In this document: positions 54,780 through 55,299 of the stretch, piece after piece | How positions within the stretch are numbered: position 1 is the first letter of the stretch | Layout of the letters: each line of letters starts with the position of its first letter | DNA from: Alphaproteobacteria bacterium | Lineage (GTDB): Bacteria > Pseudomonadota > Alphaproteobacteria > UBA9219 | Assembly: GCA_026225415.1 (NCBI GenBank) | Contig: JAMFSS010000002.1 | Coordinates: 151,915 to 215,914, forward strand | DNA length: 64,000 nt | Reading direction: 5' to 3' | The notes under the pieces: generated by a model | Told to the model about the DNA's origin: nothing | Databases searched by the model: none | The model's input: the letters and a program-made list of their open reading frames with translations, nothing else | Translations under genes and position numbers: made by a program

Positions 54780-54785
54780 TGCTCA

Positions 54786-54836
54786 CCTTCCATGCAGACC
54801 TGCTGCCGGAAGGGAGCCGTTGGACGGTTACCTTCC
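54786..54836 (-). promoter_or_regulatory. competing hairpins in the mgtA leader (putative attenuator)
   Basis: On the minus strand GGAAGG (54836-54831) pairs with CCTTCC (54813-54808), enclosing ACCGT and ACGG. A second GGAAGG (54791-54786) is the mgtA Shine-Dalgarno. CCTTCC can therefore pair with either, so a ribosome on the upstream frame, which ends in GGAAGGTAA, would decide which forms. Confidence 0.6.
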
Positions 54837-54911
54837 TGCGCGGGGCAGGATAACTTCGGATAATGTTAGGCGGGTTTTCTGTGACGAAAAGCCGCTACTG
54901 TCGCCGTCCAT
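54828..54911 (-). CDS. 27-codon leader frame upstream of mgtA
   Basis: It reads MDGDSSGFSSQKTRLTLSEV and ends in the arginine-glycine-rich PRAGR. A GAGAG precedes the ATG. The stop codon directly follows GGAAGG. It has no relation to the proline-rich mgtL peptide of enterics that I can see, but its position is alike. Confidence 0.5.
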   Translation of the reverse strand: MDGDSSGFSSQKTRLTLSEVILPRAGR

Positions 54912-54962
54912 TGTTCTCTCTATAGATTGAAAGAGGCCGAGAACCGCCCGACCTTTGGACAG

Positions 54963-54992
54963 GCTGTACACCCGTGACGCGTTAAAAGTCAA
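54963..54992 (-). promoter_or_regulatory. candidate mgtA promoter
   Basis: On the minus strand TTGACT (54992-54987), an 18-base spacer, and TACAGC (54968-54963). The -35 is good and the -10 weak, which would suit an activated promoter. Confidence 0.35.
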
Positions 54993-55011: not shown

Positions 55012-55299
55012 TTATTTTTTATCTGCGGCCATGGGGCGCAGGAGTTCGCACAAAGATTGGTCGCAGGAAATAAGCAGCGTATCGGGCGCAGCGCTACTGG
55101 CGCTTGTGTCCGTGGTTTTGGGCAAGGTGCAGGTGACCTGATAGATCACCTTGCCCGCGCTTCCCAACTGGTTTTGGTACACATCGATTTTCTTGGGGTT
55201 GCAGTTATTGATGCGCGCGGTTTCACGGGCTTCCGGTTGGCCTGCAAAGGCCGGAGCTGTCGCAAAAGTCAGAACGGCAATGAGAATGAGACGGTACAT
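55012..55299 (-). CDS. small secreted protein, unknown
   Basis: The 95-residue protein has a signal peptide (MYRLILIAVLTFATAPAFA) and four cysteines (NNCNPK, QVTCTL, ISCDQSLCEL), which may form two disulfides in the periplasm. The family is not recognised. It lies 42 bases downstream of mfd on the same strand. Confidence 0.65.
   Translation of the reverse strand: MYRLILIAVLTFATAPAFAGQPEARETARINNCNPKKIDVYQNQLGSAGKVIYQVTCTLPKTTDTSASSAAPDTLLISCDQSLCELLRPMAADKK

Follow-up and report, generated by a model that had tools for sequence, protein, structure and literature searches.

The 64,000-nucleotide stretch of DNA that we analysed, here called the window, encodes on its minus strand an Mg2+-translocating P-type ATPase, MgtA, whose sequence scores 1162.9 bits against TIGR01524 (cut-off 610.75). 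Between mgtA and a promoter-like sequence lies a short reading frame that begins with an acidic peptide, accompanied by predicted hairpins and by three short segments that can pair with one another (Table 1). The promoter-like boxes were recognised by eye; in many relatives, inspected in the same way, a TTGAC and, about 17 nt further on, a GTGTAC-like stretch likewise lie upstream of the leader ATG. We set aside a 54-residue frame that would start with the TTG at 54992 as probably not real, since this TTG opens the promoter-like TTGACT and conservation among relatives sets in about 9 nt before the ATG. Immediately upstream of the leader (55012-55299, minus strand) lies the gene of an exported-looking protein of 95 residues without a Pfam match; L037, L038 and L039 have homologues of it (57-64% identity), likewise upstream of their leaders.

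Table 1. Mapped parts of the mgtA leader region in the window.
Feature	Position	Strand	Remark
mgtA, Mg2+-translocating P-type ATPase, 896 aa	52089..54779	-	TIGR01524
Hairpin predicted to occlude the mgtA ribosome site while the leader is covered	54781..54817	-	-22.9 kcal/mol
Region 3, GGAAGG, the mgtA ribosome-binding site	54786..54791	-	6 nt before ATG 54779
Region 2, CCTTCC, able to pair with region 1 or the mgtA ribosome site	54808..54813	-	
Leader frame, 27 codons, MDGDSSGFSSQKTRLTLSEVILPRAGR and stop (MDGDSSGFSS...)	54828..54911	-	ATG at 54911, TAA ending at 54828; start kept in 13 family copies
Region 1, GGAAGG, the last two sense codons of the leader, then TAA	54831..54836	-	
Hairpin just 3' of the MDGDS codons (+17..+42)	54870..54895	-	-10.9 kcal/mol, shuffle test
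Start box ATGGACGGCGACAGT (M-D-G-D-S), proposed to destabilise ribosomes in an Mg2+-sensitive way	54897..54911	-	
GAGAGAACA, weak Shine-Dalgarno-like, adjoining the leader ATG on its 5' side	54912..54920	-	13-copy alignment
Promoter-like TTGACT-N16-TGTACA	54965..54992	-	recognised by eye

The original prediction had described a 27-codon frame ending in GGAAGG-TAA, a single CCTTCC and an mgtA ribosome site that is again GGAAGG, and all of these are present in the layout it gave. Its statement that the CCTTCC can pair with either GGAAGG agrees with our calculations, in which both pairings were computed for the window. The M-box (ykoK) is an Mg2+ riboswitch that controls Mg2+ transport genes in cis. 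No M-box had been seen in the leader, and we recognised none either: across the whole window, no match to an Rfam family attains the gathering score. The proposed sensor here also differs from that of the M-box in being the ribosome, not an RNA pocket.

A degenerate pattern search in the 24 genomes of the family yielded 19 places, of which six are not leaders; the other 13 are leaders starting MD(G/D)D, distributed over 12 genomes. Aspartates are present at positions 2 and 4 in all 13, both residues having been demanded by the search patterns. When 29 related genomes were searched with the MgtA protein, seven MgtA at ≥73% identity were obtained, the window and two partial sequences included, and six of the seven genes have a leader with window-like first codons upstream. 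The original prediction had named loss of the frame in close relatives as an outcome that would count against it; this was seen at the mgtA of G004 (76% identity), which has no such leader in the upstream sequence examined, while the six other close MgtA genes have one.

Among 33 genomes of the order, a pattern search with ≤2 mismatches returned 13 places, 11 of them leaders, and a further copy, whose peptide equals that of the G034 copy, came from a named contig (L050). L031, which has an MDGAG frame, was set aside. A search with a two-part pattern across the class matched none of 385 genomes, a count that is uninformative for the family, as the sample held only three family genomes: the window genome, which lacks the second part of the pattern, and two in which no leader was found. 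Viral contigs gave no matches.

Six of the 13 family leaders lie upstream of mgtA, four directly and two with small genes between, and five upstream of NRAMP-family genes, in each case with one small gene between; the remaining two lead into a DUF736 protein (PF05284) or a small protein of no assigned family. The ribosome site that is hidden belongs, in nine of the 13 copies, to a small first gene and not to a transporter, so that control of the transporter would there need coupling. The motif DxxG-TxxA/T has been described as the signature of Mg2+-transporting NRMTs (PMC8806188). It is fitted by the DAGG of the NRAMPs in G008 and G001 and by the TTIA in G008; the NRAMPs of G014 and G033, with DPSG and TTxS, are near the signature without being identical to it. 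When we anchored the search on NRAMP genes and examined 420 nt upstream at 18 of 19 loci, a leader was found at three of the 18; the leaders of G008 and G001 lie further upstream. Several family NRAMP genes, including the window genome's own, have no such leader within the 420 nt.

Two further placements concern genes other than transporters. At L036/L060 (G007), the DUF736 gene comes first behind an MDGDS leader, and a 38% identical homologue is found behind the leader of G005 (L038), among the small genes of its mgtA copy; this hints that the DUF736 family belongs to Mg2+ balance in these bacteria. On contig C5 of G002, a second leader copy in one genome (L043/L059) is followed by a small ORF and a 95-residue protein of no assigned family, with no transporter behind it; an NRAMP gene is found on the opposite strand at a distance of about 1.3 kb.

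In the alignment of the 13 family copies, the start ATGGACGRYGACA and the GAGAnnAnA preceding it are nearly invariant, GAGAnnAnA itself being the same in all. Residue 5 is S in ten leaders, R in two and T in one, and from about residue 6 on the peptide has diverged. The start codons and GAGAnnAnA recur in relatives mostly upstream of transport genes, and to judge by the sequences this recurrence is more than chance. The most conserved part of the leader is its acidic start, MDGD, which had no place in the original prediction.

Directly behind this start, a hairpin is predicted in all 13 copies, beginning +16 to +20 from the ATG. Its sequence is mostly specific to the copy, with G008 and G001 sharing theirs, and MAFFT with RNAalifold, applied to the starts of the 13 leaders, yielded no consensus stem; we therefore tested the hairpins copy by copy. 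Stability exceeds that of dinucleotide shuffles at p ≤ 0.05 in nine of the 13 (combined p ~5e-8, over copies that are related), among them the hairpin of the window with -10.9 kcal/mol against -4.4 ± 1.9 for its shuffles (p 0.003). The hairpins of G015 (p 0.83), G014 (0.35), G009 (0.30) and G033 (0.07) are ordinary. The hairpin is so placed that a ribosome would run into it while making the acidic residues, and it might act as a speed bump. Further into the frame, six of the 13 copies share an exact block TGTCTCCAG at about 50-60 nt from the ATG, and others have it in altered form; it is absent from the window copy and from G015, and a model based on the peptide leaves it unexplained.

At the other end of the leader, each of the 12 copies tabulated has a hairpin that conceals the first ribosome site downstream, and over these copies one pair of this hairpin occurs as T-A, T-G and C-G, another as C-G and T-A. 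To see how the leader bears on this site, we computed the energy of opening it with the leader free and with the leader masked to 9 nt past its stop, as by a terminating ribosome. Opening was cheaper with the free leader in 12 of the 13 copies, by 0.8-8.5 kcal/mol (window: 11.0 free, 14.2 masked), and went in the wrong direction in G001 (6.76 free, 5.94 masked). Because any added RNA eases opening to some extent, the leader bodies were each shuffled 100 times. In nine of the 13 copies, a fraction of ≤0.04 of the shuffled leaders opened the site as easily as the natural one (combined p ~9e-7, over copies that are not independent); the test was failed by the window (0.22), G012 (0.18), G007 (0.22) and G001 (0.38). 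By these calculations, the window copy is among the weaker ones for competition between leader and ribosome site.

The same comparison can be made for nascent RNA that ends before the ribosome site. Here the CCTTCC arm of the window pairs with the leader frame at a probability of 0.68, against 0.35 ± 0.20 in 60 shuffles, of which a fraction of 0.05 reach the natural value. With G001 left out, pairing between region 2 and the leader exceeds the shuffle mean in 12 of 12 copies and is reached by ≤0.05 of 60 shuffles in nine of the 12. At equilibrium, forcing the leader GGAAGG:CCTTCC pairing in the window costs 5.8 kcal/mol (-36.9 versus -42.7), and the ribosome-site hairpin wins; the pairing thus forms in nascent RNA and loses once the ribosome site has been transcribed. 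This pairing is weak at equilibrium; if functional, it would act during transcription or be aided by the rest of the leader.

Competition of the leader for the blocking arm, as originally predicted, is supported by the predicted folds of most copies and with the proposed sign, by which a ribosome reaching the stop turns the gene off and failure to do so turns it on, whereas the window itself does not pass the shuffle test. The specific six-base GGAAGG/CCTTCC competition is not conserved, other copies using other leader sequence, and in the window it makes a poor rival to the blocking hairpin, being weaker by the 5.8 kcal/mol given above.

The closest functional parallels come from enteric bacteria. 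On the MgtL leader peptide, ribosomes have been reported to fall off at EPDP when Mg2+ is low, an effect that is removed by changing Glu2 and Asp4 (PMC11282234). Like MgtL, the leader described here is a short frame upstream of mgtA with acidic residues at positions 2 and 4 (E2-P-D4 there, D2-G-D4 here), and the sign we propose is the same as the one given for MgtL, with full translation turning expression off and early ribosome loss turning it on (PMC11282234). The two differ in that MDGDS contains no proline, unlike EPDP, and in the readout, which is described as a Rho-dependent terminator in MgtL and would here be a hidden ribosome site. MgtL belongs to another phylogenetic group, and we compared the two without a sequence alignment. 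The original prediction had contrasted the leader with the enteric one as different in sequence and design; this holds for sequence and readout, whereas the sensing logic looks alike, the acids of MDGD corresponding to Glu2 and Asp4 of MgtL.

The proposed readout instead resembles that of Salmonella MgtQ, an 8-codon frame for which alternative stem-loops hide or reveal the ribosome site of mgtB and acidic residues are reported to be required (PMC8092293). Both have an acidic short frame, and the stem-loops predicted here may, like those of MgtQ, mask or reveal the ribosome site of a transporter gene at the translational level. MgtQ differs by its eight codons, its acids Asp2 and Glu5 and its location between mgtC and mgtB, whereas the leader described here has 27 codons, is close to the promoter and includes an extra hairpin; the window leader lies not in an MgtQ-type position between mgtC and mgtB but upstream of mgtA. 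By its sequence, the window leader would join the acid positions of MgtL to the readout of MgtQ. In the open-licence literature we found no report of MDGDS leaders, or of such leaders in alphaproteobacteria or Clostridia.

Taking these observations together, we think it probable that the leader is translated and couples Mg2+-dependent ribosome survival to translation of the importer MgtA. With adequate Mg2+, a ribosome would start at the leader ATG, pass M-D-G-D and the hairpin behind it and reach the stop codon, where it would cover region 1; region 2 would then fold onto the mgtA ribosome site and mgtA would be off. At low Mg2+, the ribosome would fall off at the acidic start by intrinsic ribosome destabilisation, the free leader RNA would capture region 2 during transcription, and the mgtA site would stay open, so that the importer is made. 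We infer that the frame is translated, that ribosomes drop off when Mg2+ is low and that expression changes as a result, with the abort step modelled on the enteric work.

The main doubts attach to the sensing step, namely the missing proline and the report, again from enteric work, that di-acidic residues alone are insufficient (PMC11282234). As a guess, the start-box hairpin may supply the slow-down that is missing. That hairpin could also serve another scheme with an identical readout, in which the ribosome is not lost in the leader but stalls there, through acidic codons and hairpin or through some other signal such as amino-acid supply, and thereby frees the mgtA site. A hairpin directly behind the acidic start could indeed slow the ribosome. 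Stalling nevertheless appears unlikely to us, since beyond about position 5 the peptide is not conserved and so keeps no regulatory run of codons, and since the shared acids sit at the very positions that cause Mg2+-sensitive drop-off in MgtL, according to the account in PMC11282234. Ribosome drop-off thus seems the likelier of the two. Most likely, the window holds an Mg2+-responsive leader that follows enteric logic in a new group, its own pairing being weak.

Outside the family, we scanned one genome each of 84,980 species for AMAATGGACGRCGACAGKWG and obtained 15 loci: 11 contigs titled as proteobacterial or alphaproteobacterial MAGs, three Clostridia and one chance match in Rhizobium. Each Clostridial locus has the motif at the opening of a frame of 43-46 codons with a good ribosome site, located before a CorC/HlyC-type gene. 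We followed this within one Clostridial order by motif searches in 147 genomes (synonyms allowed at MDGD) and 394 genomes (one mismatch) and by a motif-free search anchored on CorC in 59 genomes, 29 of which had a match. In total, 13 CorC-type leaders were found, nine by motif (L063, L064, L065, L086, L088, L090, L096, L100, L101) and four by protein and not motif (L106, L107, L108, L109); L086/L100 and L108/L109 are close pairs. An exact search of the phylum around G413 matched one of 398 genomes, G413 itself.

All 13 CorC-type leaders have D at positions 2 and 4, which was partly selected for in the nine found by motif. Their MD(G/S)D codons vary (GAT TCG GAT, GAT AGC GAC, GAT GGT GAC, GAT GGC GAC, GAC GGA GAC, GAC AGC GAC), and as the two aspartates are kept despite these changes, it is the peptide that seems to be selected. 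The leader is present at all four CorC orthologues of 54-60% identity, counting those found by protein without the query's own. None of the nine orthologues of 41-49% identity that we looked at (L110-L118) has the full pattern: three have frames beginning MDES, MDDG and MDS without a terminator, two genes themselves begin MDSQ or MDSG, and the other four have no such frame. L119 (41%) and orthologues of lower identity showed none. Among 127 short frames preceded by a ribosome site at the Clostridial loci, seven (six distinct) have acids at positions 2 and 4, all of them before CorC- or MgtE-type genes, in a scan for which many loci had been fetched by motif and which misses real leaders with a distant ribosome site.

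A search anchored on MgtE, with 21 of 22 loci examined and one weak partial match left out, found an MDGDS leader only at L154 (the same as L098). Two frames of other kinds turned up in that search. At L169 (G1227), the last 110 bases before 1500 hold an MDADS frame with a strong ribosome site, which overruns the ribosome site and start of mgtE in another frame; its translation would, by this arrangement, block mgtE directly. L168 has a doubtful MDSDYHGQ frame. We set aside as non-leaders L041, L054, L066-L068, L070-L085, L087, L097, L099, L102-L104, L179, L180, L186, L189, L193 and L194, which we judged to lie mostly inside other genes, to be very short or to be without a transporter.

The leaders before Mg2+-transport-type genes in Clostridia also bear on whether the frame in the window might be a chance ORF, with pairings that reflect ordinary RNA folding. 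This would suit the short and weak exact GGAAGG/CCTTCC competition of the window and the lack of a leader at the close mgtA relative in G004, yet it is very hard to reconcile with the Clostridial cases, with a start box kept in 13 copies, of which 11 precede transport genes, and with pairings that beat nearly all shuffles in nine of the 13; we regard it as highly improbable.

The codon variation bears in turn on whether the signal resides in an Mg2+-sensing RNA fold, a riboswitch, with the reading frame of secondary importance. Several observations would suit such a fold: the first 14 nt and the preceding GAGAnnAnA are nearly invariant in the family, the internal block TGTCTCCAG is exact in six of 13 copies, a hairpin follows the box, if mostly of differing sequence, and the synonym-allowing search in Clostridia returned three leaders with identical first 15 nucleotides. 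Synonymous variants do occur, however, with GGT in G001, GGA in L090 and GAT codons in L106-L109, the last of which could not have matched the synonym-allowing pattern, and these changes weaken the nucleotide motif as the selected feature. Further, none of the 12 Clostridial leaders tested has a remarkable hairpin behind the box, the internal block is missing from the window copy, and to the absence of Rfam families from the window can be added that ten relatives gave only three unrelated matches below threshold. A riboswitch is therefore improbable in our view.

The Clostridial leaders differ from those of the family in where the inhibitory hairpin lies. All 13 CorC-type leaders contain an intrinsic terminator (hairpin and T4-T6) starting about 48-74 nt after the leader ATG, which is located inside the frame or, in L096 and L107, across the leader stop codon. 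A ribosome going through would break this terminator, and one lost at MDGD would let it form, so that the same kind of start would act with the opposite sign, as expected for CorC-type exporters. CorC-domain proteins have been implicated in Mg2+ efflux (PMC12421838), a role with which 'translation = on' would fit for an exporter. The CorC-type query scores below the NCBIfam cut-offs (230.6 bits versus 376.05 for the GldE model, 95.1 versus 379 for the CorC model), so that we infer an exporter of CorC type, and with it export, at the level of the family.

In contrast, the hairpin follows the frame in all family copies, 11 with and two without a transporter, and also in two Clostridial leaders, L091 before a CorA gene and L098 before an MgtE gene. 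At L091, opening of the hairpin costs 2.9 kcal/mol with the leader free and 12.5 when masking extends to 3 nt beyond the leader stop; this leader has D2 but G4, and its CorA scores 82.5 against a family cut-off of 200.75. At L098, the effect on opening the terminator arm is small (13.8 kcal/mol free, 15.7 masked). The contrast between importers and exporters in hairpin position lies largely between two lineages and thus represents few independent events.

In six further CorC-type genes (L069, L089, L092-L095), the gene itself begins MDGDSW, MDGDGSW or MDSDSW, as if an Mg2+-sensitive start had been built into the exporter gene. They recall E. coli CorC (YbeX), for which an N-terminal ribosome-destabilising sequence has been reported (PMC12421838, citing Chadani et al.); unlike in E. 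coli CorC, the acidic start of the other Clostridial cases is in a separate leader with a terminator inside.

A broader reading would be that different phyla share a single nascent-peptide code for low Mg2+, M-D-x-D at the very opening of a short frame, with the place of the hairpin relative to the frame setting the sign. With the hairpin after the frame, importers would be shut off by translation (in the family MgtA and NRAMP/NRMT, in Clostridia one case each of MgtE and CorA); with a terminator inside the frame, the translating ribosome would have to break the hairpin to turn CorC-type exporters on; and in those Clostridia where MDSDSW lies within the exporter-type gene itself, the protein would not be made at low Mg2+. 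We see the case for this code as evenly balanced, and place it no higher because the unbiased sample comprises four leaders and the CorC assignment lies below family cut-offs.

Mg2+ sensing by ribosome destabilisation has been documented in enteric bacteria, with MgtL and MgtQ. If our reading is true, the same trick is used in an alphaproteobacterial family and in Clostridia, wired oppositely for import and export. An M-D-x-D start together with the position of a hairpin would then provide a simple sequence rule for finding Mg2+-controlled genes, and genes located behind such leaders, for instance those of DUF736 type, would become candidates for a role in Mg2+ balance.
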